DNA from: Candidatus Methylomirabilota bacterium
Lineage (GTDB): Bacteria; Methylomirabilota; Methylomirabilia; Methylomirabilales; 2-02-FULL-66-22
Length of the DNA stretch: 42,413 nt
Direction: 5' to 3'
Assembly: GCA_016209735.1 (NCBI GenBank)
Contig: JACQVN010000051.1
Span: 1-42,413 of the forward strand
In this document: positions 15,696-34,239 of the stretch, one piece after another
Numbering within the stretch: the first letter of the stretch is position 1
Layout of the letters: the number at the start of each line of letters is the position of its first letter
Program-made: the position numbers and the translations under genes
The notes under the pieces: model-generated
Told to the model about the DNA's origin: nothing
The model's database searches: none
The model's input: the letters and a program-made list of their open reading frames with translations, nothing else

Positions 15696-15725
15696 CTGGT
15701 TTTTGCGCTGACGCGCAAAAACCAG
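15696..15725. repeat. Hairpin repeat A, copy 1
   Basis: CTGGTTTTTGCGC, loop TGAC, GCGCAAAAACCAG: a perfect 13-bp stem. On the minus strand it begins one nucleotide after the TGA stop of the response regulator gene (15729-15727). Five more copies are at 20791, 21169, 21467, 22306 and 34211. Confidence 0.9.
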
Positions 15726-15726
15726 C

Positions 15727-17106
15727 TCAGGAACCGCTTCGATTGGGTTCGCGGATGCCCATTTCCTTGAGCAGGCGCGAGAGGTAGGTGCGCTGGAGGC
15801 CGAGGGCATCAGCGGCCCGACTCTGGTTCCCGCCCGTCCGGGCCAGGGCGTCCTGGAGGAGCTGCCGCTTGAACTGTAGGACGGCTTCGTGATAACTCCC
15901 GAGGCTGGCCGCAGCCACGGCAGTGCCGGCAACCGGCTCGAAGATCGGCAGATCGTGCGGCTGGATTTCGGGCTCGGTGGACAGCGTGACGGCCCGCTCG
16001 ACGGCGTTCTCCAGTTCCCGCACGTTCCCCGGCCAGTCGTGCCGGGCGAGGAAGGCCATGGCCGCCGGCGAGACCGGCTTCGGCAACCGGCGAAGCTCGG
16101 CGCTGTACTTCTCCATAAAATATTGGACGAGCGACCCGAGGTCCTCCTTTCGCTCCCGGAGCGGGGGCAGCGTTAGCTTGACCACGTTCAGGCGGTAGTA
16201 GAGGTCCTGGCGGAACGTTCCCTGCTTCAGGAGCCGCTCCAGGTCGGTGTTGGTCGCGGCGACGAAGCGGAGGTTGCCGCGCAGAGTCCGGGTCCCGCCG
16301 ACCCGCTCGAACTCCTGCTCCTGGAGCAGGCGGAGGAGCTTCGCCTGGAGGGCCGGCCGGATGTCCCCGATCTCGTCCAGGAAGAGGGTGCCGCCCTCCG
16401 CCAGCTCCACCTTCCCCCGCTTGAGCTGATACGCCCCCGTGAAGGCGCCCTTCTCGTGGCCGAACAGCTCGCTCTCCAGGAGTTCCTCGGAGAGGGCCAC
16501 GCAGTTCACCACGACCAAGGGGCGCTCCTTCCGCGGGCTCCAGCGATGGATGGCGCGCGCCAGGATCTCCTTGCCGGTCCCGCTCTCCCCGCGAATCAGG
16601 ATGGTGGCATTGCTGGCGGCAGCCTGCTGCGCGGTGCGGACGACCTCCAGCATGGCGGGACTTCCGCCGATGAGCGGGCGATCCAGGCCGCAGAGCTCCG
16701 TCTGGAGCCGGGCGTTCTCCTCGCGCAGGGCGCAGCGCTCCAGCGCCTTGTTGATCACCACCTCCAGGTGGGCGGGGTCGAGCGGCTTGGGGATGAAGTC
16801 GTAGGCGCCGGCCCGCATGGCCTCCACCGCCTTCTGGGGGGTCCCCCAGGCGGTGATGACGATGACCGTGGTCTGGATCCCCTCGCTCCGGATGGTCTCC
16901 AGGATCTCCAGACCGCCAAGACCGGGGAGCTGCAGATCGAGCAGCGTGACCGGTGCAGGCTCCTGCCGGAGGGTCCGCAGCGCCTCCTGCCCGTCCGCGG
17001 CGCAGGTCACCTGGAAGCGCATGAGGCGGAGCCGGTCGGAGAGTAGCTCCAGGATGTCTGGGTCGTCGTCCACGACGAGGATGCGATACCGCTCGTGATC
17101 GGCCAT
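15727..17106 (-). CDS. Sigma54-dependent response regulator (NtrC/AtoC type)
   Basis: This 459-residue transcription activator has three domains. The receiver domain (1-120) carries the acidic pocket DDD13-15, phospho-acceptor D57 in LLDLQLPG, and the conserved Thr/Lys region ITAWG..KP. The sigma54-interacting AAA+ domain (~145-375) has Walker A GESGTGKE at 173-180, the sigma54-contact motif GAFTGA at 220-225, Walker [10 protein letters not shown] and the RLNVV/PPLRER sensor region. A Fis-type helix-turn-helix (~415-450) contains [21 protein letters not shown]. The protein should activate sigma54 promoters after phosphorylation by the adjacent kinase. Its ATG follows the kinase stop by 2 nt, so the two are translationally coupled. 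Hairpin repeat A abuts its stop. I found no clear sigma54 promoter (TGGCAC-N5-TTGC) in the window. Confidence 0.95.
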
Positions 17107-17108
17107 GG

Positions 17109-19214
17109 TCAGACGCTCCGTAGGCTCTGGGGCACGGTGGGGGTAAGCGCCTCGGCGGCGGGGAGCGTGAAGGCGAACCGGCTGCCGTGCCCCAGCCGGC
17201 TCTCCACCCAGATGCGGCCTCCCATGAGCTCGATGAGGCTCTTGCTGATGGCCAGGCCGAGACCGGTGCCCTGGGCTTTCGCGCGGCCATGGCGCCTGAC
17301 CTGATGAAACTTATCGAAGATGGCGTGCAGCTCCTCGGCGGGGATACCTTCCCCCGTGTCCTCGACGGCGATCTCGATGAACTGCTGGGGAGCAGAGGAG
17401 CCGGGGGGCAGGGGGGAATTCTCCTCCGCCCCTCCGCTCCCCTGCTCCTCTGCCAGGCGTGCAGCCACGGTGACCCGTCCCCCCACAGGCGTGAACTTGA
17501 TGGCGTTTCCCACCAGGTTGGTGAGGACCTGAAAGGTCTGGTCCCGGCCGGCCACGGCCCGCAGGGAGCGGTCGGCGGATGCGTCGGACAGCTCCAAGCC
17601 CTTCTCGGCGGCCACCGGGCGCAGGCTGTCCAGGACGTCCCGCAGGAGAGAGGCCACGGGAATCGTCTCGGGGAGGACGTGGACACGCCCGGCCTCGATC
17701 CGGGAGAGGTCGAGCAGGTCGCTGATGAGCCGGGTGAGCCGCTCCGTGTTGCTGCCGATGCGAGACAGGTACTGCCGCACGGGATCGGCGATCTCGCCGG
17801 CGACCCCATCCGCCAGGTTCTCCACGGACATCCTGATGGCGGTGAGGGGGGTGCGAAGTTCGTGGGAGACGTTGGACACGAATTCCGATTTCAGCCGGTC
17901 GAGTTCCTGCAGCCGCTCGTTGGCCTTGGAAAGCTCCGCGGTACGCTGGGCAACCTTGATCTCCAAGCTTCGGGTCAGCTCCTCGATCTCGCGATAGGCC
18001 ATGGCGTTGGCCAAGGCGACGGCTGCCTGGTCGGCCAGGCGCTCCAGGACCTCCTGCGCCAGCGGCAGGAAGGGGCCGTCCTGCCATCGGCCGACGGCCA
18101 GGACGCCCAGGCAGCGCTCCCGGACCCGGATGGGCACCAGGACGAGCGCATGCACCTTCTCCTCGGCGAGAACCCGCGTCTCGGCCGGATCATCGGTGGA
18201 GAGGGCGGGGCAGAGGAGCCAGGGGCGGCCCTCGGCGAGCACCCTTCCGGTCCAGCCGAGGCCGGGTCGGATCGTCCAGGATCGAACCGCTTTCCCGACA
18301 GTGCCCGTGTGGGCCAGGACGGCCGCAGGCTTCCCCTCCTCCTCACAGCAGACCAGAAAGGCGAGATCGCCGCGGATGAGTCGACGGGCATGGTGGACCA
18401 GGGTGTCCAGCACGGTCCGCAGGTTGAGGGAAGAGGAGAGCTCCCGGTCGAGCTGGAAGCGGACCTGGAGGGACTCGGCCATACGGTTGAAGGCGTCGGC
18501 CAGCCCGCCGATCTCATCCTGGCGGGCCACCGAGATCCGGCGGCCCAGATCCCCGCGCGACAGGGACTCCGCGCCTTCGGCCAGGGCCTGAATGGGCGCC
18601 GCCAGACGCCGAACATGGACCCGCACCCAGAACAGTCCCCCCGCCAGGGTCAGCAGGCCCAGGGCCAGGATCGCGTTACGTGTCCGCCGCAGGAGCCGCG
18701 CCTCGTTGGCAAAGGAGATCCCGATCCGGGCCACGGCCCGGCGCTCGTTGAGCACCAAGACCGGCGTGGTGAAATCGTGTACCGGCTCGCCGCCGGAGCG
18801 GGTCTCCTGGACCATCGGCTGGGTGGCGGCGAGGGCCCGCCGCGTCACGGGATCGTGGAAGATTCTCCCGGTGCTCTCCATCCGGCTGTGCATGAGCGCC
18901 TTGCCGTTCAGGTCCAGGATCATGGCGTAGCGCATCTCCGGCTGCCGCACCAGGCTCCGCACCAGCTCCCGCAGGGCCAGAAAATCCTCGGCCAGCACGG
19001 CCTGGACGCTGCTGAAGGCAAAGATTCGCACCAAGCTGAAGCCCTTCTCCTGGGTGGTGCGGTGGAGGGCGGCCTCCTGGATCATGAGGACGACCGTGAG
19101 GAGCAGGCCGAAGAGGGCGGTGATCAAGGTGACGATCTGCAGCGTGAGACGCGCCTGGAGGCGCCAGCTCCCGTACCACTCGCCGATGCGACGCACCACG
19201 CCCATCCCGGTCAT
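17109..19214 (-). CDS. Membrane sensor histidine kinase with HAMP and GAF domains
   Basis: This 701-residue kinase is the expected partner of the downstream regulator. Order of parts: TM1 (~22-45, IVTLITALFGLLLTVVLMI), a ~130-residue periplasmic sensor region, TM2 (~175-195, NAILALGLLTLAGGLFWVRV), HAMP (LAAPIQALAEGAESLSRGDL), a GAF domain (~270-410), a coiled-coil linker, then HisKA with phospho-acceptor H451 in SNVSHELRTPL. The HATPase domain has the N box (TNLVGNAIKF), G1 (VEDTGEGIP), F and G2 (GTGLGLAISKSLIELMGG) boxes. The start at 19214 lies 2 nt after the binding-protein stop (TGA-GG-ATG), implying coupling; the longer frame upstream is overlap with that gene. The arrangement suggests that the binding protein feeds the sensor region; this is inference. 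Confidence 0.93.
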   Translation of the reverse strand: MTGMGVVRRIGEWYGSWRLQARLTLQIVTLITALFGLLLTVVLMIQEAALHRTTQEKGFSLVRIFAFSSVQAVLAEDFLALRELVRSLVRQPEMRYAMILDLNGKALMHSRMESTGRIFHDPVTRRALAATQPMVQETRSGGEPVHDFTTPVLVLNERRAVARIGISFANEARLLRRTRNAILALGLLTLAGGLFWVRVHVRRLAAPIQALAEGAESLSRGDLGRRISVARQDEIGGLADAFNRMAESLQVRFQLDRELSSSLNLRTVLDTLVHHARRLIRGDLAFLVCCEEEGKPAAVLAHTGTVGKAVRSWTIRPGLGWTGRVLAEGRPWLLCPALSTDDPAETRVLAEEKVHALVLVPIRVRERCLGVLAVGRWQDGPFLPLAQEVLERLADQAAVALANAMAYREIEELTRSLEIKVAQRTAELSKANERLQELDRLKSEFVSNVSHELRTPLTAIRMSVENLADGVAGEIADPVRQYLSRIGSNTERLTRLISDLLDLSRIEAGRVHVLPETIPVASLLRDVLDSLRPVAAEKGLELSDASADRSLRAVAGRDQTFQVLTNLVGNAIKFTPVGGRVTVAARLAEEQGSGGAEENSPLPPGSSAPQQFIEIAVEDTGEGIPAEELHAIFDKFHQVRRHGRAKAQGTGLGLAISKSLIELMGGRIWVESRLGHGSRFAFTLPAAEALTPTVPQSLRSV

Positions 19215-19216
19215 CC

Positions 19217-20776
19217 TCAGCGGAGCTCCACGGTCACCAGCTTGTCCTGGGGCTGGCCGTACGTGTTCAGGGCGAGGCCTTTCACCCGGGTGCTGATCGC
19301 GGCGATATTGATCTGGTGGAAGAGATACAGGCCCGGGGTCTCCTCGGCGATCAGGCGCGCCACCTCTCGGTAGAGGCCGAGGCGCCGCGACTCTTCCATG
19401 GGGGTCCGCGCCTCCTGGAGGAGACTGTCCACCTTCGGATGGGAGAAGCGGCCCAGGTTGTCCGCCGAGTCGGACTGGAACATGCCGACGAGGAAGCGCG
19501 CGGGATCGGGGGTACTCACCGCCCACTTATAGAGGTAGAGGTCGTGCGCGCCCCTCTTTCGCTCCGCGTGGAACTCTTTCCAACTGGCGACCCGGACCTC
19601 CTGGGTGGCGATCCCGATCTTCTTCAGATAATCCTGGACGGTGCGGACGACCTCCGACCAGAGCTCCGAGGGGTTGAAATAGAGCAGGCGGAGGCTGAGA
19701 CCGTCCCCCGCGCCGGAGTCCTTGAGGAGGGCGCGCGCCCGCTCGGGATCGTAGGCGGGCTGGGAGACGGCGGGGTCGAAGCCGTCGCACCCCGGCGGGA
19801 GAGGCCCCCTGGCGGCGATCATCGCCCCCCGCCCGAGAATGGCGGCCAACCGCTGCCGGTCCACACCCCTGACGATCGCCTCGCGAATCCGGCGGTCTTT
19901 GAGGGCGGGGCGCTCCACCTGCATCCCCAGGAACATGGTGTTGAGGGCGCTGACTTTCGCGAGATTGATCCCCGGACTGGCGGACATCTTCTCCAGGAAA
20001 TCCGGCGACACGCCGTACAGCAGGTCGAACTCCCCCTGCAGCATCCGCTCCATGGCCTCCTCGTTGTTGTCCAAGGACACAAAGCGCACTCCGCCGATTC
20101 GCGGCCGCCCGGGCCAAGCCTCCGGGAACGGCGCCAGCGCGATCCGCGCCCCCTCCCAGCGGTCTAGCCGGAATGGGCCGGTCCCCACGGGTGCCCGGGA
20201 CAGGTCGCCGCCCTGCGTGCGGAGGGCCTGGGGACTCACGATCTTCACCAGGGCAAACTGCAGGGGCCGGGCAAAGCGGGTGGTGATGACCACCGTGCGG
20301 GGGGTCGGGGTCCGGATCTCCTTGACCCAGTCCCCCAGGATGCGCTCGTAGACGTTGGGCGGAGTCTGACCGTAGAACGGAGAGGTGCGGAGGTATTGCC
20401 GCTCGTAGCTGGCCTTCACGGCGGCGGCGTTCAGGAGACTCCCATCGTGGAAGCGGACGTTCCGACGCAGCGTGAAAGTGGTGGACAGGCCTCCGGGGCT
20501 CTCCGTCCACCGCTCGGCCAGCGCCGGGAGCATCTCGGTTCCGGCCGGGGAAAGCTGCGTGAGGGCGTCGTAGAGGAGCCACATCACCTGATCGTCCTGG
20601 ACCCGGCTGCTCTTGGCCGGGTCCAGGGAGGCGGGCTGGCTCGGCAGCCACTGGACGAAGGTCCGATCCTCGGCGCGGCCCGGCGGGGCCGCCGAGCCGA
20701 GGAGGAGTCCCAGGGCGAGCAGGGAGAGGCTGAGCGAGTGGCATCGCGCCTTCCTGGAGAGGGATGGAGTTTCCAT
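19217..20776 (-). CDS. Family 5 (peptide/nickel-type) solute-binding protein, orphan
   Basis: This 519-residue periplasmic binding protein is of the SBP_bac_5 (DppA/OppA/NikA) family. A signal peptide spans residues ~10-36 (CHSLSLSLLALGLLLGSAAP). Family features follow: PASLDPAKSSRVQDDQVMWL, LYDALTQLSP, a W-rich TFTLRRNVRFHDGSLLNAAA segment, VGTGPFRLDRWEGARIAL and YDPERARALLKDSG. The start at 20776 is fixed by AGGAGG with 8-nt spacing, itself directly abutting hairpin repeat A. No permease or ATPase genes (dppB-F) are present; the gene is instead coupled to a kinase and a response regulator. It may thus serve as the ligand-sensing subunit of the two-component system rather than for uptake. 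Ligand unknown: peptides, nickel-haem complexes and sugars are all bound by relatives. Confidence 0.92.
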   Translation of the reverse strand: METPSLSRKARCHSLSLSLLALGLLLGSAAPPGRAEDRTFVQWLPSQPASLDPAKSSRVQDDQVMWLLYDALTQLSPAGTEMLPALAERWTESPGGLSTTFTLRRNVRFHDGSLLNAAAVKASYERQYLRTSPFYGQTPPNVYERILGDWVKEIRTPTPRTVVITTRFARPLQFALVKIVSPQALRTQGGDLSRAPVGTGPFRLDRWEGARIALAPFPEAWPGRPRIGGVRFVSLDNNEEAMERMLQGEFDLLYGVSPDFLEKMSASPGINLAKVSALNTMFLGMQVERPALKDRRIREAIVRGVDRQRLAAILGRGAMIAARGPLPPGCDGFDPAVSQPAYDPERARALLKDSGAGDGLSLRLLYFNPSELWSEVVRTVQDYLKKIGIATQEVRVASWKEFHAERKRGAHDLYLYKWAVSTPDPARFLVGMFQSDSADNLGRFSHPKVDSLLQEARTPMEESRRLGLYREVARLIAEETPGLYLFHQINIAAISTRVKGLALNTYGQPQDKLVTVELR

Positions 20777-20790
20777 GGCTCGCACCTCCT

Positions 20791-20816
20791 GGTTTTTGCG
20801 CTGGCGCGCAAAAACC
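20791..20816. repeat. Hairpin repeat A, copy 2
   Basis: GGTTTTTGCGC, loop TGGC, GCGCAAAAACC: an 11-bp perfect stem. On the minus strand the 3' arm runs straight into the AGGAGG Shine-Dalgarno of the solute-binding protein gene. Confidence 0.9.
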
Positions 20817-20827
20817 CAATGGTCATT

Positions 20828-20869
20828 CCCGCACTGTTCGCCAGACGTGCTCGCGAAGAATGCGGGCTA
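20828..20869. repeat. Hairpin repeat B, copy 1, providing a TAG stop
   Basis: On the minus strand TAGCCCGCATTCTTCGCGA opens the element; the other arm, at 20828-20842, matches at 12 of 15 positions. The TAG is the stop codon of the 96-residue protein gene. Copy 2 at 33122-33165 has the same relation to asd. It lies 12 bp from hairpin A copy 2. Confidence 0.85.
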
Positions 20870-21157
20870 GACGCCGTTCCCCCCGTCTTCGAACTCGAAG
20901 GAGACGGTCTTGCTCATGCTTTGCGCAAAGCGGTCGAGGTCGGCGCGCCGGAGCTTGCCGGAGATCTCGATGGTCACCTTCACGCTCAGCCGGTCGTGGG
21001 GGGTCTTCTCCAGGCGATCGATCCCGTCGGCCCCGCGCAGCACTCGCGGCTTCACGTCGTCTCCGTAATAGGGCGGCGTGAGTACCTCCTGCGCGCCCCC
21101 GGCCCCCTGGCCCTTCTTGATCGCGTAGCGCACTCCCCGCTTCTTCACGGATGTCAT
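20867..21157 (-). CDS. Conserved-looking 96-residue protein
   Basis: This small soluble protein has no recognised family. It starts MTSVKKRGVRYAIKKGQGAG and continues with VLTPPYYGDDVKPRVLRGAD, then LSVKVTIEISGKLRRADLDR and FAQSMSKTVSFEFEDGGNGV. The C-terminal half alternates in the manner of a small alpha/beta fold. The start is set by AGGAGG 5 nt upstream, which abuts hairpin A copy 3; the stop TAG is the first three bases of hairpin B copy 1. It lies 90 nt before the solute-binding protein gene on the same strand and may be co-transcribed with the sensor operon. Conserved Shine-Dalgarno and codon bias argue that it is real. Confidence 0.65.
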   Translation of the reverse strand: MTSVKKRGVRYAIKKGQGAGGAQEVLTPPYYGDDVKPRVLRGADGIDRLEKTPHDRLSVKVTIEISGKLRRADLDRFAQSMSKTVSFEFEDGGNGV

Positions 21158-21168
21158 GGGCTCCTCCT

Positions 21169-21196
21169 GGTTTTTGCGCGTGGGCGCGCAAAAACC
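21169..21196. repeat. Hairpin repeat A, copy 3
   Basis: GGTTTTTGCGCG, loop TGGG, CGCGCAAAAACC: a 12-bp perfect stem, extendable by one T-A pair. On the minus strand CC of the 3' arm is followed at once by AGGAGGAG, the Shine-Dalgarno of the 96-residue protein gene. The flank AACTGG on the plus side is shared with copy 6. Confidence 0.9.
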
Positions 21197-21300
21197 AAAC
21201 TGGTGGGACAATGAATTTCTTGCACAGGCCCTCCGAACAGTCTCATCAAAGGCACGCGTGATGGGATGGCACCCTGGCAATTCGGGTCGTGTTCCATGCA

Positions 21301-21442
21301 ACCACAATTGATGCGAACAAGGTCCCTCGTAGGGGAGGGGTTTATCCCCTCCCACCTCAGCGCATGGTAGGAAGAGCGCCTCCCGTGCGAAAAGCCCCTC
21401 TAAACCTCCTCTTCGTGTCCTTCGTGCTCTTCGTGGTGAATG
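21301..21442 (+). repeat. MITE-like element, copy 1
   Basis: It begins ACCACAATTGATGCGAACAA and contains the internal hairpin GGGGAGGGGTTTATCCCCTCCC (in two arms around TTTA). It ends in CTTCGTG units and TTCGTGGTGAAT. A diverged copy in opposite orientation is at 24710-24844, and alignment by eye shows the same blocks in the same order over the whole length. It fills most of the 324-bp gap between the 96-residue and HExxH genes. No coding capacity. Confidence 0.8.
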
Positions 21443-21466
21443 CTCCGGGCTACTGCCTTTCAGTTT

Positions 21467-21497
21467 TGGTTTTTTGCGCGCTCAGCGCAAAAAACCA
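21467..21497. repeat. Hairpin repeat A, copy 4 (holds a stop codon)
   Basis: TGGTTTTTTGCGC, loop GCTCA, GCGCAAAAAACCA: a 13-bp perfect stem, one T longer than the other copies. On the minus strand the HExxH gene reads through the first arm as Gly-Phe-Leu-Arg and stops at TGA in the loop (21484-21482), so the repeat supplies both the last codons and the stop. Confidence 0.9.
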
Positions 21498-22084
21498 GCG
21501 GGGAGATTCGCGCAGGTCGGCGGCATATTCTGCGCCGTAAAACCACCGAGACTCCTTCCCTGATAGTCCATGATTTGCGGGGGCGTCCGATGCGTATCGA
21601 GGTAAATCCAGCGCCCTCTCATGTTGTAGAGGCGGAAACTTTCCCAATCTCCGCCATCGGGAGCCGTGGCCCCATCCAGCTCGAAGAGCAGCCACTCGAA
21701 CGCCTCCGCGTCCAGCTCCGAGCCGCACAGGACATGCACGAGCTCGTGGAGCAGCACCGCCGCCACCCGTCGGGTGCCCATGACGCGCTGTTCTCGGAAC
21801 GTGCGCTCACAGATCCAGATGCAGGCGGCCCCCGTGTACGCATAGGGACCTTCGTCGACCGGCGTGCCCCGGCCGATCCATGGATCGTAGCTCAGCCAGG
21901 CGTGCGGCGGGCAGGCGGCCGCAAAGCCCGGATCGGCTGTAGCGGCGACCATGCCGTCCAATCGCCGGAAGAGGTCCGACGGGATGTTGCCGCTCTTGGC
22001 AGGCAGCCTGGTCCCCATCTCGCGGACCGCGTTCTCCAACTCTGCCTTCTGCGCGGAGGGAATCGCCGGGTCATACGTCAGCAT
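21482..22084 (-). CDS. Predicted zinc-metallopeptidase-like protein (HExxH)
   Basis: This is a 200-residue protein with the zinc-peptidase signature LLHELVHVLCGSELDAEAFE (H-E-L-V-H), followed by acidic residues that could provide the third ligand. Other visible parts are CPPHAWLSYDPWIGRGTPVD, GAACIWICERTFREQRVMG and FRLYNMRGRWIYLDTHRTPP. There is no signal peptide or membrane segment from the start MLTYDPAIPSAQKAE at 22084 (GAGG upstream); the longer frame to 22219 begins in Pro/Arg-rich spacer. Exact family and substrate unknown; a minimal metallopeptidase domain or an inactive relative are both possible. Its last codons and stop lie inside hairpin A copy 4. Confidence 0.7.
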   Translation of the reverse strand: MLTYDPAIPSAQKAELENAVREMGTRLPAKSGNIPSDLFRRLDGMVAATADPGFAAACPPHAWLSYDPWIGRGTPVDEGPYAYTGAACIWICERTFREQRVMGTRRVAAVLLHELVHVLCGSELDAEAFEWLLFELDGATAPDGGDWESFRLYNMRGRWIYLDTHRTPPQIMDYQGRSLGGFTAQNMPPTCANLPAGFLR

Positions 22085-22305
22085 GGCAGCACCTCTGGAA
22101 CGGCGGGAGGAAAGACGGCGCGGGCAGGGGGCGGGCGGGTGCCCGCACGCTGGCGCCCCCGCCGGAGCGAAGGGTGGCGAAGGCGGGTGGGGTCTGGACC
22201 AGGGAGACGATCCGGACACATGCCGGTCCCCCGCGGAACGTGAGCGGCTCTGAGACTCGACGTGCAGACTATACCCGAAAGTAGGGCGGGGGTGTCAACG
22301 GAATT

Positions 22306-22329
22306 GGTTTTTGCGCGCCGCGCAAAACC
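22306..22329. repeat. Hairpin repeat A, copy 5
   Basis: GGTTTTTGCGC and GCGCAAAACC around a short GCC loop; one A is missing in the second arm, leaving a bulge. It lies just upstream of the putative recA promoter, in a 337-bp spacer whose other notable content is GC-rich short palindromes (22110-22200). Confidence 0.8.
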
Positions 22330-22343
22330 CAGGGGCGATTCAG

Positions 22344-22372
22344 TTGACTTCAGGGGAGAAATCACGTAGCCT
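22344..22372 (+). promoter_or_regulatory. Candidate recA promoter
   Basis: TTGACT at 22344-22349 and TAGCCT at 22367-22372 with a 17-nt spacer form a plausible sigma70-type promoter about 50 nt before the recA start. I see no recognisable LexA box of the E. coli, Bacillus or alphaproteobacterial type around it, so SOS control cannot be claimed. Confidence 0.4.
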
Positions 22373-22421
22373 TCTTCGTTCAAGTGCGATGCGCCGGACT
22401 GCGCGAACAGGAGATGCGATC

Positions 22422-23480: not shown

Positions 23481-23481
23481 G

Positions 23482-23540
23482 CGGCAACCGGGCGATTGGG
23501 CAATTCGGCCACTGGGCCACTGGGCGACTGGGCAGCCGGG
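23482..23540 (+). repeat. Short degenerate tandem repeat (GGGCRAYTGGGC)
   Basis: The spacer between recA and pilT consists of near-repeats of an 8-10-base unit: GGCGATTGGG, CAATTCGGCC, ACTGGGCC, ACTGGGCG, ACTGGGCAG. It is not coding. It resembles the low-complexity spacer after ilvB at 42059-42152 in style but not in sequence. Confidence 0.6.
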
Positions 23541-23558
23541 AGAGAAAAGGGCGTGGTA

Positions 23559-24704: not shown

Positions 24705-24709
24705 TCTGG

Positions 24710-25548: not shown

Positions 25549-25556
25549 GCCCGAAG

Positions 25557-25656
25557 ATTTCACCACGGAGACACAGAGGCACGGAGAAAGACTCGGGCGG
25601 GATTGAAGCAGTCCGTAGTATCCTCGGTGGCCTCCGTGCCTCCGTGGTGAATAATC
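25557..25656. repeat. CACGGAG-type inverted repeat
   Basis: The left arm starts ATTTCACCACGGAGACACAG; the right arm ends CCTCCGTGCCTCCGTGGTGA. The arms are complementary over ~25 bases around a ~50-bp centre. It is a short relative of 7185-7446 and occupies most of the recX-alaS gap, so an RNA hairpin would form between these two reading frames. Confidence 0.8.
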
Positions 25657-25710
25657 CGGAGTGAGGCGGCCGTCGGGAAACGACGACTCCCAGCGGGGCT
25701 AGAACAGCGA

Positions 25711-28395
25711 ATGCCAATGCGAGCCATGACGGGCAGCGAGATCCGGAGCGCCTTCCTGGACTACTTCCAGGCGGAGGGGCACCGCGTGGTGGCGAGCTCC
25801 TCACTCGTGCCCACGGCCGATCCCAGCCTCCTGTTCACCAACGCCGGGATGGTCCAGTTCAAGGATGTGTTTACGGGCAAGGAGCAGCGGCCGTACTCCC
25901 GGGCCGTGACCGCGCAGAAATGCGTGCGGGCGGGGGGCAAGCACAACGACCTGGAGAACGTCGGGCGCACCGCCCGGCACCACACGTTCTTCGAGATGCT
26001 GGGGAACTTCTCCTTCGGCGACTACTTCAAGGAACGGGCGATCGATCATGCCTGGACCTTTCTCACGGGGCGCCTCGGGCTTCCCGCGGAGCGGCTGTGG
26101 GTGACCATCCATGAAGGCGATGCCGCCCTGGGCGTCGGACCGGACGAGGAGGCCGAGCGCCTCTGGCTGCGCTATGTGCAGAAGGAGCGGATCGTCCCCT
26201 GTTCCACCAAGGACAACTTCTGGCAGATGGGGGATACCGGGCCATGCGGGCCGTGCTCCGAGATCGTCTACGACCAGGGGCCGCGGATGGGCTGCGGGCG
26301 GCCGACCTGTGCGGTGGGCTGCGACTGCGACCGGTACCTGGAACTGTGGAACCTGGTCTTCATGCAGTTCGAGCGGAGCCTTGAGGGCGTCCTGACACCG
26401 CTCCCCAAGCCAAGCATCGATACGGGCGCGGGGCTGGAGCGGTTGGCGGCGGTGCTCCAAGGGGGGCGGAGCAATTTCGACACCGATCTCTTCCGGCCGA
26501 TCATCGGGGTGGTGGAGGAGCAGTGCGGCGCGCGATACGGAGCGAGCGTGCAGGCGGCCGTCTCCATGCGGGTCATCGCGGATCACGCCCGGGCGACGGC
26601 TTTCCTGGTGACGGACGGCGTCCTCCCCAGCAACGAAGGCCGGGGCTACGTCCTGCGGCGGATCATGCGCCGGGCGCTCCGCCACGGCCGGATGCTGGGC
26701 CTGGAGGAGCCTTTCCTGGCGGCCGTGACGGGCCGGGTTGCGGAGCTGATGCAGGAGGCCTATCCGGAGCTTCAGGAGGCCCGCGACCACGTGGCGCGCG
26801 TGGCACAGGGGGAGGAGGAGCGGTTCGGCCACACCCTGAAGGTCGGCCTGCGCCTGGTGGATTCCCTGTTGGAGGCGCAGAAGGGGGCCGGCTCCCGGAC
26901 CGTGCCGGGGGCGGAGATCTTCAAGCTCTACGACACCTACGGCTTTCCCCTGGATCTTCTGCGCGACATCGCCGGGGACCAGGGCTTTGCGCTGGACGAG
27001 GCCGGGTTCGAGCAGGCCATGGAGGAGCAGCGGGCCAAGGCGCGCGAGTCGTGGGTGGGCTCCGGTGAGGTGGAGATCCCTGCCAGCCTCAAGGCCTTGG
27101 CCGATCGCCTCCGCGTCGAAGCGTGCTGGCATCACAGCCTGACCGAGGAGGCCAAGATCGCGGCCATCCTCGCGGGCGAGGGTCGGCAACCGGCGGAGCT
27201 GCTCCGGCAGGGAGAGACGGGCGAGCTGGTGCTCGATCGGACCCCCTTCTATCCCGAGGCAGGCGGCCAGGTCTCTGACGGCGGGCGGATCACCACCCGG
27301 GACGGCGCGCAAGCCGAGGTGATGGCGGTGCACCGCCCGACCCCCAATCTGGTGCTGCATCGAGTCCGGGTGAAGCGGGGATCCCTGCGGGCCGACGCGA
27401 CGGTGACGGCCGAGGTCGAGGCCGGCCGGCGCAAAGCCACCGCCAAGAACCACACGGCCACCCACCTCCTGCACGCCGCGCTCCGACAGGTGCTGGGAGA
27501 TCATGTGAAGCAGGCCGGCTCCCTGGTGGCCCCGGATCGGCTGCGGTTTGACTTCAGCCACTGGAGCCCCCTGGCGCCGCAGGAGATCGACCGGATCGAG
27601 CGGCTGGTGAACGAGCAGATCTGGGAGAACCGTCGGGTCGGCACGGAGGAGAAGGCGCTGGACGATGCCGTGAAAGGGGGGGCCATGGCCCTCTTCGGGG
27701 AAAAGTACGGCGAGCGCGTCCGCGTGGTCACGGTGGATGGCTTCAGCCAGGAGCTGTGCGAGGGCACCCATGTCCAAGCCACGGGCGAGATCGGTCTCTT
27801 CAAGATCGTGAGCCAGGGAGGGGTGGCGGCGGGGGTGCGGCGGGTGGAGGCCGTGACCGGGCCGGGCGCGTACCTTTACGTGAAGCAGGAGGAGCAGGTC
27901 CTGGCGGAGGCCGCCGCCCGGATCAAGGCCCGGCCGCTGGAGCTGGCGGAGAAGGTGGAGAGGCTGACGGAGTCGAGCCGCGACCTGGAGCGGGAGAATC
28001 AGCGGCTCAAGGCCCGCCTGGCCGGCGGGGTGCTGGAAGAGCTCCTGGCGGGCAGCCGAGATGTGAACGGAGTCCGCGTGGCCGCCGGCCGGGTGGACTC
28101 CCTGGACGCCAAGGGCATGCGGGAGCTGGGGGATCGCGCGCGCGCGCGACTGGGGAGCGGGGTGGTCGTCCTGGTCGCGCAGGCCGAGGGTCGGGTCCTC
28201 TGGCTGACGATGGTGACCACGGACCTCGCCGGGAAAGTGCACGCCGGACGCCTGGCCCGGGAATTGGCGGCGGTCACGGGCGGCGGGGGTGGTGGCCGGC
28301 CAGACATGGCAGAGGCCGGGGGGAAGGATCCCTCCCGGATCCCCGAGGCCTTGGAGAGACTTCCCGAACTGGTGAATCGGCAGTTGAGCAGTTGA
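25711..28395 (+). CDS. alaS: Alanyl-tRNA synthetase
   Basis: This 894-residue class II synthetase attaches Ala to tRNA-Ala and edits mischarged Ser/Gly. The catalytic core (1-~460) shows FTNAGMVQFKDVFTG, KCVRAGGKHNDLENVG, HHTFFEMLGNFSFGDYF and DTGAGLERLAAVLQG. The editing domain has the zinc ligands of K-NHTATHLLH (HxxxH) and CEGTHVQATGEIG. The C-terminal coiled coil and C-Ala domain end in GGGGGGRPDMAEAGG. The true start is uncertain: ATGs lie at 25711, 25717 and 25726, none with a strong Shine-Dalgarno, and the family usually begins near MTGSEIR (25726). It follows recA-pilT-recX, a common chromosomal order. Confidence 0.97.
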   Translation: MPMRAMTGSEIRSAFLDYFQAEGHRVVASSSLVPTADPSLLFTNAGMVQFKDVFTGKEQRPYSRAVTAQKCVRAGGKHNDLENVGRTARHHTFFEMLGNFSFGDYFKERAIDHAWTFLTGRLGLPAERLWVTIHEGDAALGVGPDEEAERLWLRYVQKERIVPCSTKDNFWQMGDTGPCGPCSEIVYDQGPRMGCGRPTCAVGCDCDRYLELWNLVFMQFERSLEGVLTPLPKPSIDTGAGLERLAAVLQGGRSNFDTDLFRPIIGVVEEQCGARYGASVQAAVSMRVIADHARATAFLVTDGVLPSNEGRGYVLRRIMRRALRHGRMLGLEEPFLAAVTGRVAELMQEAYPELQEARDHVARVAQGEEERFGHTLKVGLRLVDSLLEAQKGAGSRTVPGAEIFKLYDTYGFPLDLLRDIAGDQGFALDEAGFEQAMEEQRAKARESWVGSGEVEIPASLKALADRLRVEACWHHSLTEEAKIAAILAGEGRQPAELLRQGETGELVLDRTPFYPEAGGQVSDGGRITTRDGAQAEVMAVHRPTPNLVLHRVRVKRGSLRADATVTAEVEAGRRKATAKNHTATHLLHAALRQVLGDHVKQAGSLVAPDRLRFDFSHWSPLAPQEIDRIERLVNEQIWENRRVGTEEKALDDAVKGGAMALFGEKYGERVRVVTVDGFSQELCEGTHVQATGEIGLFKIVSQGGVAAGVRRVEAVTGPGAYLYVKQEEQVLAEAAARIKARPLELAEKVERLTESSRDLERENQRLKARLAGGVLEELLAGSRDVNGVRVAAGRVDSLDAKGMRELGDRARARLGSGVVVLVAQAEGRVLWLTMVTTDLAGKVHAGRLARELAAVTGGGGGGRPDMAEAGGKDPSRIPEALERLPELVNRQLSS

Positions 28396-28469
28396 ACCGC
28401 CGGTACCAGCGGCCATGCCGTTGGTGCCGAGAGGACGCAAAGAAGCGCTCGCGGAGCGGCGGGCAGGTC

Positions 28470-28566
28470 AAAGGGGGGCGAGGGCTGCCTGCGCCAAGCG
28501 ACGCGCCTGTCTGCCGCGTCGGCACAAGCAGGCGGCAGGCAGGGGGGATTTCATCCGGCGGACGTG
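28470..28566 (+). repeat. Half copy of hairpin repeat C carrying an inserted palindrome
   Basis: AAAGGGGGGCGAGG (28470-28483) and GGGGATTTCATCCGGCGGAC (from 28544) are contiguous in the copy at 31919-31980, but here they are separated by ~58 bp. The insert runs from GCTGCCTGCGCC to GGCGGCAGGCAG and is itself an imperfect palindrome. The left CCCCCC arm of repeat C is missing. Thus one repeat family has inserted into another. It lies in the 262-bp alaS-psd spacer. Confidence 0.75.
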
Positions 28567-28657
28567 TTGCGTAAACAACATTGGGGGTAAGCCGGCAGCG
28601 ACAGCAGTGGCGGCCGGCCGGGCTTTTACTTGAGCCGGACTCGCTTCGGTGCTATAT

Positions 28658-29320
28658 ATGACTGAGCTCCGCGAGACGCGCCGATATCGCCTGCCTATCG
28701 AGCGGGACGGCCTGGTTTTCGTCCTGCCCGCGGTGGGGATGAGCGCCCTGCTCTTCCTCCTGCGTTTTCCGTGGGGGGGGACGGGCGTCTTGCTGCTGGC
28801 GGCCTTCGTGGCCTACTTCTTCCGGGACCCGGAGCGAGAGATTCCGCCCGGGGAGCGATTGGTGCTCTCCCCGGCCGACGGGCACGTGGTGGCCATCAAG
28901 CCCTTTCCCGATTGGCGGGGGGCGTTCGGCGAATCCCTGGTTCGGGTCAGCATTTTCCTGTCGGTGCTGGACGTCCACGTCACCCGGGCGCCGCTCTCGT
29001 CGCTGGTGAACGCGGTGACCCACCGGCCCGGTCGATTCAAGGCGGCCTGGGCCGAGGAGGCGTCGGAGGCCAACGAGCAGACGCTGATCCACTTCGCCTC
29101 CCCGGACGGTGACGTCTGGGTGAAGCTGATCGCCGGCCTCCTGGCCAGGCGGATCGTTTGCCGGATCGGACAGGGGCAGAAGGTTGGCGGTGGGGAGCGG
29201 ATCGGCCTGATTCGCTTCGGGTCGCGCGTGGACTGCATCCTGCCGGCGACGGCCGAGCTGAAGGTACGCCGCGGGCAGGCGGTGCGGGGCGGGCTGACAG
29301 TCCTGGCGATCATCCCCTGA
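28658..29320 (+). CDS. psd: Phosphatidylserine decarboxylase (short, PSD-B-like)
   Basis: This 220-residue membrane-associated pyruvoyl enzyme converts phosphatidylserine to phosphatidylethanolamine. It is the short form found in Rhizobium-like and many other bacteria. Visible: two hydrophobic N-terminal segments (GLVFVLPAVGMSALLFLL and GVLLLAAFVAYFF), FFRDPEREIP, SPADGHVV, FLSVLDVHVTRAP and the self-cleavage site RFGSRVD (residues 186-192), whose Ser189 becomes the pyruvoyl group. ATG 28658 is used; an in-frame GTG lies three codons earlier, and neither has a clear Shine-Dalgarno. It is followed 37 nt later by pssA, which makes its substrate, so the two form a phosphatidylethanolamine operon. 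Confidence 0.95.
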   Translation: MTELRETRRYRLPIERDGLVFVLPAVGMSALLFLLRFPWGGTGVLLLAAFVAYFFRDPEREIPPGERLVLSPADGHVVAIKPFPDWRGAFGESLVRVSIFLSVLDVHVTRAPLSSLVNAVTHRPGRFKAAWAEEASEANEQTLIHFASPDGDVWVKLIAGLLARRIVCRIGQGQKVGGGERIGLIRFGSRVDCILPATAELKVRRGQAVRGGLTVLAIIP

Positions 29321-29357
29321 CGGGCGGATGGCCGGCGGGGTCGGGAAGGGAGAGGCC

Positions 29358-30170
29358 GTGACGAAGGGAACGGGGAGGGCGGCACCGGGGGCAATTCGGC
29401 GGCGGGTGAGGCGGGGCGTCTATCTGTTGCCCAGCAGCCTCACGCTGGGGAATCTCTTCTGCGGTTTCTACGCCCTGATCGCCATCTACAACGACGAGTA
29501 TCTGGCCGCGGCCATTGCCATCATGCTGGCGGAAGTCTTCGACGTCCTGGACGGGGCCGTGGCCCGCATGACAGGCGCCACGTCCGACCTGGGGATTCAG
29601 CTCGATTCGCTGGCGGACCTCGTCTCCTTCGGGGTGGCGCCGGGCATGCTGGCGTATGTCATTGCCCTGAAGCCCTTCGGGATCATCGGGGGATTGGCCG
29701 CCTTCGGGTTCGCCGCCTGCGGGGCCTTCCGCCTCGCCCGCTTCAACGTGCAGACGCATATCCTGGACAAACGCTATTTTGTCGGATTGCCGATTCCGGC
29801 GGCCGCGGCGGCGGTTGCCACGTTCGTGCTGTTCATGAAGGAGTCCGCGGCGGTGGTCATCTCCGGCCGGGTGCTCGTCCCGGCCGAAGTGGCCTCCGCC
29901 GGGGTCTTGCTTGGGGTGTACCTGCTGGGGTTCCTGATGGTGAGCCGGATTCGCTACCGCAGCCTGAAGGGACTGGAGGTGCGGCGGCGGCGGCCCTTCA
30001 CCATCCTGACCACCCTGCTCCTGGTGCTCTTGATCGTGGCGTCCCACCCCAGCCTGTTCCTGTTCCTGGCCTTCGTGGGATACGCCCTGTCGGGGCCGGT
30101 GCGGATACTGCCCATCTGGCGTAGACGACACCCGGCGGAATTGAGCGAACACCCGGCGCCCGGGAAGTAG
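29358..30170 (+). CDS. pssA: CDP-diacylglycerol-serine O-phosphatidyltransferase
   Basis: This integral membrane enzyme makes phosphatidylserine from CDP-diacylglycerol and Ser. The CDP-alcohol phosphotransferase signature D-G-x2-A-R-x8-G-x3-D-x3-D is complete (D65, G66, A69, R70, G79, D83, D87, counted from the GTG start). About seven hydrophobic segments follow, as in the family. I chose GTG 29358 because GGGAGAGG precedes it at good spacing; an upstream ATG at 29328 without Shine-Dalgarno would add ten residues. It is directly downstream of psd and 33 nt before leuA. The C-terminal ~20 residues are basic and cytosolic. Confidence 0.94.
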   Translation: MTKGTGRAAPGAIRRRVRRGVYLLPSSLTLGNLFCGFYALIAIYNDEYLAAAIAIMLAEVFDVLDGAVARMTGATSDLGIQLDSLADLVSFGVAPGMLAYVIALKPFGIIGGLAAFGFAACGAFRLARFNVQTHILDKRYFVGLPIPAAAAAVATFVLFMKESAAVVISGRVLVPAEVASAGVLLGVYLLGFLMVSRIRYRSLKGLEVRRRRPFTILTTLLLVLLIVASHPSLFLFLAFVGYALSGPVRILPIWRRRHPAELSEHPAPGK

Positions 30171-30203
30171 GGGCGCCCCGCATACGTGAAGGGGGAGACA
30201 AGC

Positions 30204-31751
30204 ATGGCCGAGCGGATTCTTATCTTCGACACGACGCTGCGCGACGGCGAGCAATCGCCGGGTTACAGCATGAACACCAGGGAGAAGCTGGAACTGGCCC
30301 GCCAACTGGCCCGCCTGGGGGTGGACATCATGGAGGCGGGATTTCCCGTCGCCTCCGAGGACGACTTTGAAGCCGTGAAAGCGGTCGCCCAGCAGCTCCG
30401 GGGGGGGCCCATCATCGCCGGGCTGGCCCGCGCCAAAGACATCGACATCGATCGCGCCTGGGAGGCCCTGAAGCACGCGGAGCGGCCGCGCATCCACACC
30501 TTCATCGCCACCTCCGAAATCCACCTGAAGTACAAGCTGAAGTGCTCGCCCGAGGAGGTGCTGGAGGCGACGGTGGCCGCGGTCAAGCGGGCCAAGGGCT
30601 ACACCGCGGATGTGGAGTTCTCGCCCGAGGACGCCCACCGGACCGACCAGGAGTTCCTCTGTCGGGTGGTGGAGGCCGCCATCAAGGCGGGGGCCACGAC
30701 CATCAACATTCCCGACACGGTTGGCTACGGCGTTCCCTGGGAGTTCGGGGAGCGCATCCGCAATCTGATGAATCGGGTGCCGGGCATCGAGCGGGTGGTG
30801 GTCAGCGCCCATTGCCACAACGACCTCGGCCTGGCGGTGGCCAACTCGCTGGAGGCCGTTCGGGCCGGCGCTCGCCAGGTGGAGTGCACGATCAACGGGA
30901 TCGGGGAGCGGGCGGGGAATGCGGCGCTGGAAGAGCTGGTCATGAGCCTCAGGACCCGACGGGATTTCCTGGGGTTCGATACCAATATCCGGACGGAGGA
31001 GATCTACCGCACCTCCAAGCTGCTCCAGTCCATCACGGGGGTGAACGTCCAGCCCAACAAGGCCATCGTGGGCGGCAACGCCTTTGCCCACGAGGCGGGC
31101 ATCCACCAGCACGGCGTGCTGCAGAAGCCCATGACCTATGAGATCATGACCCCCGAATCGGTGGGGGTTCCCAAGAGCCGTCTCATCCTGGGCAAGCACT
31201 CGGGACGGCACGCGTTCAAGAAGCGGCTGGCGGAGCTGGGGGTGGAGCTCACGGAAGAGGATCTGGGGAAGGCCTTCGTGCGCTTCAAGGCCCTCTGCGA
31301 CCTGAAAAAAGAGGTGTTCGACGAGGACCTGCTGGCCCTGGTCGAGGACGAAGTCCTCTCCGCCGGCGAGACCTACGCCCTGGAGCACCTCCAGTTCACC
31401 GGCGGGACGAACATCATCCCCACCGCCACGGTCCGCCTGCGCATCGGCGGGGAGGTGGTGCAGGAATCGGGCTGGGGCGACGGACCGGTGGATGCGGCCT
31501 ACAAGGCCATCGACCTGGCCACCAAGATCCCCGGGAAGCTCCTGGAGTATCAGATTCGCGCCGTCACGGCGGGGAAGGACGCCATGGGCGAGGTGACCGT
31601 GGTGGCGGAGATGAACGGGCAGCGGGTCGTGGGACGGGGAAGCTCCACGGATGTCATCGAGGCCAGCGCGCGGGCCTACCTGAACGCCATCAACCGCGTG
31701 GCGGCTCGCGGCGGGTCCGGCGCGCGAACCCTGCCCGACACGACGCCGTGA
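30204..31751 (+). CDS. leuA: 2-isopropylmalate synthase
   Basis: This 515-residue cytosolic enzyme condenses acetyl-CoA with 2-ketoisovalerate, the first step committed to leucine. The N-terminal DRE-TIM barrel has [15 protein letters not shown], the metal-binding [13 protein letters not shown] and [16 protein letters not shown] later segment, [15 protein letters not shown], and the C-terminal allosteric LeuA dimer domain (from ~370; [39 protein letters not shown]) are both present. That fits a full-length, leucine-inhibited bacterial LeuA rather than homocitrate or citramalate synthase, although those relatives are close. GGGGGAG lies 6 nt before the ATG. No leader peptide or T-box is visible. 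asd lies downstream after a repeat-filled spacer. Confidence 0.95.
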
Positions 31752-31798
31752 CGGGGGAAGAACGATAGCGACAGGGACAGCGAGAGGCAATCCGTTCG

Positions 31799-32067
31799 CT
31801 GTCGCTGTCGGATTTCGCTGTCGACGCTGGCGGCGGTTCAAGGTGCGGCGGTTCAAGGTGCTGCGGTTAAACCCAATAGTGTTCACATCGCCTCGGACAC
31901 AGGTGCCGGCGTTCGAACAAATCCCCCCAACCCCCCTTTACCAAAGGGGGGCGAGGCGGGATTTCATCCGGCGGACGTGGTAAGGAAAGAGCATTGCGGT
32001 TAAACCGTGAACGTCGAACCGTGAACCGCGTGCCCCTGTCGCTGTCGGATTTCGCTGTCGACGCTGG
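31799..32067 (+). repeat. Pair of 32-bp identical direct repeats in the leuA-asd spacer
   Basis: The sequence starting CTGTCGCTGTCGGATTTCGC at 31799-31830 recurs without change at 32036-32067, and both copies are followed by a related GG.GGTTC.AGG flank. A weaker inverse, GATAGCGACAGGGACAGCGA, precedes copy 1. Between the copies lie hairpin C (31919-31964) and a GAACCGTGAAC tandem motif near 32005. This spacer of 350 bp holds no gene. Confidence 0.8.
31919..31964. repeat. Hairpin repeat C, copy in the leuA-asd spacer
   Basis: AAATCCCCCCAACCCCCCTT and the complementary AAAGGGGGGCGAGGCGGGAT around a TACC loop. Other copies are at 34263-34309 and 38018-38063, with a half copy at 28470. This copy shares the downstream tail CATCCGGCGGACGTG with the half copy. 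Confidence 0.85.
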
Positions 32068-32101
32068 CTGGGGTTCGAGGCGCGGAGGGGAAGGAGCCTG
32101 G

Positions 32102-33124
32102 ATGCCGAAGGACGGATACGTGGTGGCCGTGGCCGGGGCGACGGGGGCGGTCGGTGAGGTGATGTTGCAGGTCCTGGAGCAGCGGAAGTTCCCGGTCCGG
32201 AAGCTTCTGGCTCTGGCTTCGGAGCGCTCCGTGGGGAAGCGGCTCCCGTTCTCTGGGGAAGAGGTCCGGGTCGAAATGCTCACCCGAGACGCTTTCAAGG
32301 GGGTGGACATCGCCCTCTTTTCCGCCGGTGCCGGGCGGAGTTTGGAGTTCGCGCCGGCGGCCTGGCAGGCGGGGGCCGTGGTGGTGGACAACAGCTCGGC
32401 CTTCCGGATGGATCGGGAGGTGCCGCTGGTGGTGCCGGAGATCAACCCCCATGCCATCGCCCTCTATACCCAGCGGGGCATCATCGCCAATCCCAACTGC
32501 ACCACCATCGTCACGCTGATGGCCCTGGCGCCTCTGCACCGGTTCAGCCGGATCAAGCGCGTGGTAGCCTCCAGCTACCAGGCCGTGTCCGGGGCGGGGG
32601 CCAAGGCGCTGGAGGAGCTGAAACAGCAGGTGCGGGCCTGGGCCAGAGACCAGCCGCTCATGGTCGAGGTGTTCCCGTACCAGATCGCCTTCAACGTGCT
32701 CCCCCACATCGACGTTTTCCAGGAGAACGGCTACACCAAGGAGGAGATGAAGCTGGTCCACGAGTCCCGGAAGATTCTCGAGGATCCGGCCATCCTGGTG
32801 TCTCCCACCACGGTGCGGGTGCCGGTCTTCACCGCCCACTCCGTATCGGTGCACGTCGAGACGGAGCAGAAGATTCCTGCGGCCAAGGCCCGCGAGCTGT
32901 TCTCCGCCTTCCCGGGGCTTCAACTCCTGGACGATCCTGCCGCCAAGCAGTACCCCATGCCGCTCTACGCGGCGGGGAAGGACGACTGCTACGTGGGACG
33001 TATCCGGGAGGATCTGGCGGTCCCCAACGGCCTGAACTTCTGGGTCTGCGGCGACCAGCTCCGGAAGGGCGCGGCGCTCAACGCCGTCCAGATCGCCGAG
33101 GTGCTGGCGGAGCGCTACCTCTAG
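32102..33124 (+). CDS. asd: Aspartate-semialdehyde dehydrogenase
   Basis: This 340-residue cytosolic enzyme reduces aspartyl phosphate to aspartate semialdehyde with NADPH, feeding lysine, threonine, methionine and diaminopimelate synthesis. The nucleotide-binding start VAVAGATGAVGEVMLQVLEQ, the active-site Cys133 in NPNCTT, SSYQAVSGAGAKALEEL and the C-terminal VCGDQLRKGAALNAVQIAE are diagnostic. AAGGAG lies 5 nt before ATG 32102; the longer frame upstream covers repeats. The TAG stop is the start of hairpin repeat B copy 2. Domain order and length are normal. Confidence 0.96.
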   Translation: MPKDGYVVAVAGATGAVGEVMLQVLEQRKFPVRKLLALASERSVGKRLPFSGEEVRVEMLTRDAFKGVDIALFSAGAGRSLEFAPAAWQAGAVVVDNSSAFRMDREVPLVVPEINPHAIALYTQRGIIANPNCTTIVTLMALAPLHRFSRIKRVVASSYQAVSGAGAKALEELKQQVRAWARDQPLMVEVFPYQIAFNVLPHIDVFQENGYTKEEMKLVHESRKILEDPAILVSPTTVRVPVFTAHSVSVHVETEQKIPAAKARELFSAFPGLQLLDDPAAKQYPMPLYAAGKDDCYVGRIREDLAVPNGLNFWVCGDQLRKGAALNAVQIAEVLAERYL

Positions 33125-33165
33125 CCCGCATTCTTCGCGAATACAGCCCGCGAAGAATGCGGGCT
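33122..33165 (+). repeat. Hairpin repeat B, copy 2, providing the asd stop
   Basis: AGCCCGCATTCTTCGCG (33123-33139) and CGCGAAGAATGCGGGCT (33149-33165) make a perfect 17-bp stem with a 9-nt loop, followed by TAATAAAACC. It could act as a terminator although there is no T-run. The asd TAG at 33122-33124 belongs to the repeat, as at copy 1 (20828-20869). Confidence 0.9.
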
Positions 33166-33414
33166 TAATAAAACCTCAAGGGATAAGTGACCAAGGACGG
33201 ATGAGGGGTCGCTGGTGCATTTCGACGGCGCACCCGTCCTGGCGGACGGACGTGGTGCCCACCACCATTGGTCATCACCCCCCCGCCGGGAACGGTCATC
33301 GCTCATTTGCATTCAGAGGATTCACGTATCCTTCGAGGATAGTCCGGACGGTGTCACCCGCGGGGGAAGCCAATACGACGCCGACCGGGGGCCGCCTTGC
33401 AGCAGAGGAGAGGG

Positions 33415-33445
33415 ACGCCCGGCGAGCCTGCCGCTCGCCGGGCGT
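33415..33445 (+). promoter_or_regulatory. Strong hairpin upstream of truA
   Basis: ACGCCCGGCGAGC, loop CTGCC, GCTCGCCGGGCGT: a perfect 13-bp stem ending 28 nt before the truA start and followed by CTGGCCTTTGG. It could be an attenuator or a terminator for an upstream transcript. The rest of 33166-33414 shows no gene or recognisable element. Confidence 0.45.
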
Positions 33446-33473
33446 CTGGCCTTTGGTCGCGGAGCCTGGAGGC

Positions 33474-34208
33474 ATGCGGCGGTTCAAGCTGGTCTTGGAG
33501 TACGACGGGAGCGCCTACCACGGCTGGCAGGTGCAGCCGGGATTGCCGACCATCCAGGGGGTCCTCGAATCCTGCTTGGGCCGATTCGGCGGGGGGCCGG
33601 TGGCGGTGCGGGGGGCGGGGCGAACCGACGCCGGGGTGCACGCCTTGGGGCAGGTGGCCAGCTTCGATGCGGCGCTCCGCCTGGCGCCGGCTGCGCTCAC
33701 ACGGGCCTTGAACGCGAGCCTGCCGCGGGACATCGTGGTGCGGCGGGCCGAGGAGGCGCGGCCGGACTTCGACGCCCGGTTCTCGGCCCGCTCCAAGACC
33801 TACCGCTACACGCTGCTCAGGCGGGAGACCCCCTCCGCCTTGGCGGCTCGCACCGCCCTCTTCGCGCCGACCCCATTGGATTTTGAGGCGATGGGGGCGG
33901 CGGCCAAGGAGGTGGTGGGAACGCACGATTTCTCCGCCTTTCGCGCGGGGACATGCGGTGCCCGTTCCCCGGTGCGCACGGTCTTGGCGGCCGACTGGCG
34001 GCAGGAAGGGGATTTCTGGCACTTCGAGGTCACGGCCAACGCCTTCCTGCAGCACATGGTCCGCATTCTGGTCGGCACCATGCTGGAGGTGGGGCGCGGG
34101 CGGAAGCGCCCGGACGCCATGGGGGAGATCCTGGCGGGGCGCGATCGTCGGCGGGCAGGGAAGACAGTGCCGCCGCACGGGCTGTGCCTGGTAGAGGTGA
34201 ATTACTGA
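33474..34208 (+). CDS. truA: tRNA pseudouridine(38-40) synthase
   Basis: This 244-residue enzyme isomerises uridines 38-40 in the tRNA anticodon stem. The catalytic Asp52 lies in [59 protein letters not shown] and [20 protein letters not shown] are the other family motifs. The start at 33474 begins the canonical [16 protein letters not shown] occurs at 9-nt spacing, and the open frame upstream to 33201 is unsupported. Hairpin A copy 6 follows the stop by 2 nt. Confidence 0.96.
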
Positions 34209-34210
34209 TC

Positions 34211-34239
34211 TGGTTTTTGCGCTGGTCGCGCAAGAACCA
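34211..34239. repeat. Hairpin repeat A, copy 6
   Basis: TGGTTTTTGCGC and GCGCAAGAACCA around TGGTC, with one mismatch. It starts 2 nt after the truA stop. Downstream AACTGG is shared with copy 3, showing that the repeat unit extends beyond the stem. Confidence 0.85.

Follow-up and report, generated by a model that had tools for sequence, protein, structure and literature searches.

The nearest known kind of element to the one described here is the MITE, a non-autonomous DNA transposon. In Coxiella burnetii, QMITE2 is a non-coding element of <250 bp with terminal inverted repeats (TIRs) of 23–29 bp, direct repeats of 7–9 bp and about 50–80 copies; it lies mostly in intergenic and 3′ regions, and its truncated copies resemble REPs (PMC5896051; PMC10969869). 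The Chunjie MITE of Geobacter uraniireducens, as described in a review, is 235 bp long and has dozens of intergenic copies, conserved TIRs and direct repeats, and many partial copies (PMC10969869). For the REPs themselves, a GTAG or CGTC tag is part of the definition (PMC3733652). Here, we describe a family found in a 42,413-nt stretch of DNA (the window), which is contig 42 of a 1.69-Mb, 62-contig, 68.7%-complete assembly. The hairpins of this window are very probably the TIRs of a MITE that has spread between the genes of one Methylomirabilota (NC10) lineage. The kind is well known; the family is new, and its hairpin ends are unusually well preserved. In the literature searched, we found no earlier description of the family, nor of any MITE in Methylomirabilota (NC10).

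All six stems reported by the first-pass annotation are present in the window. Allowing ≤1 mismatch, the arm motif matched 12 times, corresponding to the two arms of each of the six hairpins, vs 0.57 matches expected; the maximum in 100 shuffles was 3, and none reached the observed number. As RNA, the six hairpins have folding energies of −13.5 to −22.7 kcal/mol, with z values vs shuffles of −3.3 to −6.9. The features are as follows:

15696–15725: solitary hairpin, CTGG...CCAG, 1 nt beyond where the minus-strand gene (15727–17106) for an NtrC-type response regulator ends
20790–20817: solitary hairpin; its left edge adjoins CACCTCCT, the AGGAGG of a minus-strand solute-binding-protein gene with its start near 20776
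21168–21498, minus strand: single rearranged element in reverse orientation; window copies 3 and 4 are its two ends
21168–21197, minus strand: right-end hairpin of this element
to about 21297, minus strand: conserved inner part of this element, next to the right-end hairpin
about 21298–21450: foreign middle of this element
21467–21497, minus strand: left-end hairpin of this element
22305–22331: solitary, slightly decayed hairpin; the recA start lies 91 nt downstream
34211–34264, minus strand: truncated element, consisting of a right-end hairpin (34211–34239) and about 25 bp of right inner flank

The first-pass annotation had counted six separate copies, and those at 21169 and 21467 turned out to be the two ends of one element. 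Its profile matches lie on the minus strand (hmm 121–253 = 21297–21166, E 6e-36; hmm 3–46 = 21497–21451, E 3e-7), and its middle has been replaced. The other four hairpins of the window are remnants. The one at 34211–34264 matches hmm 190–252 (E 1e-8) and begins 2 nt past the stop (34208) of truA, a gene assigned by PF01416. The hairpin at 21168 directly adjoins the AGGAGG of a minus-strand gene, and the one at 22305 precedes the likely recA promoter (TTGACT). The gene-edge details given earlier are correct for the copies that were checked.

A second repeat family also occurs in the window, with a CCCCCCTTTG..CAAAGGGGGG palindrome within AAATCCCCCC...GGATTTC, at 31871–31999, 34262–34309, 38009–38064, and 28541–28586; it was found at L050:3666–3812 as well (L numbers denote individual sequence stretches). 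According to BLAST, all six same-genus genomes have many copies of it. One of its copies comes directly after the truncated element at 34211–34264.

When the surroundings of the copies were compared, the sequence around the hairpins proved conserved and polar. The element is ~246–250 bp long (TGG...CCA) and consists of two hairpin ends and a ~180-bp interior. Two inverted hairpins, 217–223 bp apart, bound each full element, and the interiors are alignable, with a mean column identity of 88%. Each hairpin end has the form TGGTTTTTGCGC-loop-GCGCAAAAACCA, and the TIRs read TGGTTTTTGCGC...AAAAACCAAACT at both ends, each of them being itself a near-perfect palindrome. Outside both ends lies CC/GG, and inside are AAACTGAAAGGCA at the left end and AAACTTGGTGGAGCA at the right end. 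A minority type of element has a second right end without hairpin, reading inward TGAATTTTGCACCGCCGTCCGATTTACC, which matches the terminal repeat in part (TGAATTTTGCACC). The earlier description of loop drift needs correction: the loops, of about 3–7 nt, are not freely drifting and are mostly TG(n)nC when read inward from the element end. A search with the interior only, which is blind to the stem, recovered 28 places in the assembly, of which 18 were near full-length, as well as three places in genome G004 and four in G006 of the same genus; nearly all of these places have hairpins at their ends. Internally deleted copies (about 78–110 bp) and one-ended copies are the source of most solitary hairpins. 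With a length of <500 bp and copies that differ by indels, the element was judged non-coding. A structured RNA in the interior was rejected, as the fold of the whole element had no net covariation support (term +0.61) and no match to the element was found in Rfam. An 825-bp interval between two hairpins (L040:7972–8790), considered as an element with cargo, holds the 5′ end of a pdxA-like gene and is not one element.

Evidence for mobility comes from target duplications and empty sites. In flank pairs compiled by hand, with the element bounded by TGG...CCA (or ...TCA), the agreement between left and right flanks was clear at length 9 alone, where it was 0.485 vs 0.361 in shuffled pairings (z 5.6, 0 of 20,000 shuffles as high). 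At lengths 7 and 8, z was 2.3 and 1.9, and lengths 5, 6, 10, and 11 were non-significant; the first two-ended set had likewise shown its peak at n = 9 (z 3.2). The best duplication was found in L022 (= L070), with 9/9 positions (GGAGGGATC), followed by 8/9 in L024 (= L073), L051 (= L072), L071, and L088. Altogether, several copies have 7–9 of 9 positions matching; many duplications are decayed, and many elements have no recognisable duplication. The target is approximately GG-N5-CC, and the flanks favour GG....CC. The element is absent from all of six same-genus genomes at three sites, i.e., L050:3009–3296, upstream of recA and downstream of truA, and the hairpin of the 15696 site is absent from the two readable relatives. 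One insertion at the end of the same gene is apparently common to G006 (L204) and G003 (L205), and therefore some copies are old. Of the features by which a MITE is recognised, short length, TIRs, a 9-bp target duplication and dispersed copies with empty sites were found.

At L046:3018–3290 and in L204 (G006:C179), the flanks are inverted instead of direct (CCAATGACC / GGTCATTGG); in L046, 9 of 9 positions are inverted, and each flank is formed by the stop end of one of two convergent genes. At L050:3009–3034, an extra, variant hairpin (TGTTTTTGCGC...GCGCAAAAACA) has displaced the final codons and the stop of a gene, which thereby has a new C-terminus and stop. This gene is intact in the relatives, and the version of one relative ends in ...KIVRFRG-stop.

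As a count of the window, the six-copy family of the first-pass annotation was correct; as a family size it was too small. In the assembly, a strict pattern identified 47 perfect copies; the reversed control gave no match. A profile search gave at least 66 hits in the same assembly, and in the same genus it gave 16 in G004, 19 in G006, and 6 weak ones in G003, all being scores of a model (R1) whose pairing structure was one column off, which is usable as a sequence profile and partly counts the palindrome on both strands. Among 99 genomes including its own, the strict pattern occurred only in its own and in three further members of the genus, with six copies in G004 and one each in G003 and G006. 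The profile search of the other 94 genomes returned no hits. Hairpin-bearing genomes of the genus are recorded as Candidatus Methylomirabilota MAGs (JACQVO, JAPLLC) and as a bacterium MAG (JAKPQH), and the distribution is patchy within this one genus. Exact hairpins in Spirochaetaceae, Rhodobacterales, Clostridia, Bacillus, and others lacked both the interior and the inner flanks and were taken as chance or unrelated palindromes. In two Rhodobacterales MAGs (L027:6889–6912, L031:5103–5128), the same perfect stem directly follows a common ...GAAGACTGGTAA, without the element interior; this conserved hairpin has identical arms but is probably unrelated.

Movement of the element presumably occurs in trans, through a DDE-type transposase whose gene lies elsewhere and which would bind the ends and paste the element into staggered cuts of 9 bp. 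Truncated and internally deleted copies leave solitary hairpins behind. A transposase with matching ends was not found in the 68.7%-complete assembly or in three relatives. There are no IS21, rve, or DDE_Tnp_1 genes in this incomplete assembly, and those of the relatives lack the ends of the element. Candidates for an autonomous partner among IS21, rve, DDE_Tnp_1, and Y1_Tnp were rejected, as none carries these ends, and the same was the case for candidates sought by patterns of the second right end and by distant BLAST against plasmids. Against the MITE reading stand, foremost, this lack of a matching transposase, then the elements without recognisable duplication, the two with inverted flanks, and the low divergence of the arms.

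Placement was measured on 40 stretches selected for holding copies, using a simple codon-usage gene caller instead of a standard annotation. Of 80 hairpins in these, 78 are intergenic, vs 25% expected (P 5e-44), and 45% of the intergenic ones are ≤20 nt from a gene edge vs 19% of random intergenic positions. The distances peak at 3 nt after stops and at 9–15 nt before starts, and 15 hairpin edges directly adjoin a Shine-Dalgarno sequence with its start codon. All types of gene border are occupied (36 head-to-tail in one direction and 16 in the other, 9 convergent, 8 divergent). We infer that intergenic tolerance and target choice at Shine-Dalgarno and stop/CC sites explain this placement. Insertions within genes would be lost, so that the element accumulates between genes, and the GG-N5-CC target resembles both the Shine-Dalgarno sequence (GGAGG) and sites in which a stop codon is followed by CC, which would favour accumulation at gene edges. 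The 9-bp duplication generated upon insertion in GGAGG... would rebuild the Shine-Dalgarno sequence on the side of the gene, and TGA-CC or TAA-CC would supply the other half of the target. Insertions at Shine-Dalgarno sequences would be nearly harmless because the duplication restores the signal, which offers a simple, testable reason for the gathering of small elements at such sites and at stops. Transcribed hairpins at message ends would be a by-product, of which some may since have become useful. The putative host functions considered in the first-pass annotation, stabilisation of message ends or spacing of translation, are not needed to explain placement.

What the MITE reading leaves to explain is how well the arms are kept. 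In the correct register, 97.2% of cells were paired and 8 cells were changed on both sides vs 0.7 in shuffles, with slid registers scoring worse, and in the set selected by its interior, for which the stem was not used, the arms differed from the consensus in 3.3% of cells vs 13.3% in the interior and had 1.6% vs 4.4% private changes (odds ratio 0.35, P 3e-4); as related copies inflate these compensatory and divergence counts, the evidence for upkeep stays suggestive. Compensating stem changes, claimed earlier for the window, thus hold genome-wide but not for every stem: the 22306 copy has one unpaired position and the 34211 copy a G·U pair. The compensatory changes and the low arm divergence support selection on the hairpin, as had been proposed, or some other upkeep. 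In an active lineage, recognition by the transposase keeps the arms alike; the arms are better kept than is expected for a dead MITE. Most target duplications have decayed but the arms have not, which hints that inserted copies are maintained, whether through selection or through template-switch repair of palindromes. That the hairpin ends are actively kept by mRNA-edge selection or palindrome repair, whereas body and target duplications decay, is a possible but rather doubtful reading. If it is true, the element leaves behind a genome-wide set of near-perfect hairpins at gene edges. Hairpins so well kept amid decayed surroundings offer a testable case of exaptation or palindrome repair. For each of the conditions that the first-pass annotation named as refuting its observation, namely few copies, random placement and non-compensatory changes, the outcome favoured the observation.

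Exaptation would mean that solitary copies are selected as stabilisers of mRNA 3′ ends, as weak terminators or as 5′-leader elements. The compensated changes and low arm divergence agree with this, the hairpins are stable as RNA, and the likely common old insertion in G003 and G006 retains most of its stem beside a stop codon. However, much of this pattern also results from transposase recognition in the active lineage, copies occur at all kinds of gene border, and most sites are not common between species. When tested as intrinsic terminators, the hairpins had their T tract in the 5′ arm and their A tract in the 3′ arm, with outer flanks starting with GG; without a U tract after the stem, they are not intrinsic terminators. 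We regard exaptation as possible, yet rather doubtful, and grade any host role of the hairpins equally low. Alternatively, the arms could be kept paired by template switching during replication, a repair of quasi-palindromes in which one arm is copied onto the other. This yields paired double changes and paired insertions, such as the extra T-A pair at 21467; however, it keeps the arms alike to each other but not between copies, and the arms are conserved between copies too. We consider this explanation unlikely.

A REP-like mobile element was one of the options offered by the first-pass annotation. Mobility is right in kind; rather than a REP, the family is a MITE of the TIR and target-duplication type with hairpins as terminal repeats. 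A REP/BIME family, spread by a RAYT (HUH Y1 transposase) acting on single-stranded hairpins, would account for short intergenic palindromes that often form inverted pairs, and the assembly does contain three Y1_Tnp (IS200/IS605-type) ORFs of 171–358 aa (L038:2561–3592, L039:3513–4589, L040:3268–3783). Yet neither foot of the hairpin bears a GTAG or CGTC tag, the consensus feet being ACC-T and A-AAnTTG, and the Y1 genes are not flanked by hairpins: in L038 and L039 a 3-kb surrounding contains none, and in L040 the hairpin is about 4 kb off, as far as the incomplete assembly extends. HUH transposition makes no target duplication, whereas 9-bp duplications are present here. We excluded REPs because of the missing tag and the lack of hairpins around the three Y1 genes, and regard this origin as very improbable. 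An operator for a host transcription factor, which a near-perfect palindrome in the intergenic DNA of one genus might suggest, is the least credible reading, given loops of varying length that leave half-site spacing unfixed, many copies after gene ends, duplicated targets, and homologous ~180-bp interiors that refute it as the sole explanation and leave only a secondary role possible.

Among the known systems, Correia (NEMIS), ERIC, and RUP elements resemble the MITE described here as small intergenic mobile repeats whose RNA hairpins can affect neighbouring messages. Their usual description is of simple TIRs and TA targets, whereas in the present element each TIR contains a palindrome and the target is 9 bp long. 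GTAG/CGTC REPs and BIMEs with RAYT have in common with the present hairpins that they are gene-adjacent palindromes of 20–40 bp with compensatory stem variation and inverted pairs (PMC3733652); in contrast, the present family has no such tag and no hairpin-flanked RAYT but has 9-bp duplications and a long common interior. Here, solitary REP-like palindromes and the full-length transposon from which they derive are visible within one genome. Chunjie is similar in size, intergenic copies, TIRs, direct repeats, and partial copies, but has another host and sequence, and the cited account does not describe a hairpin inside a single TIR (PMC10969869). QMITE2, for which no relation by sequence is claimed, corresponds to the present element in size class, TIRs, direct repeats, copy number, placement, and REP-like truncated copies. 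It differs in containing a GTAG REP, a tag that the present element lacks, whereas here each TIR is a hairpin and the target is GG-N5-CC.
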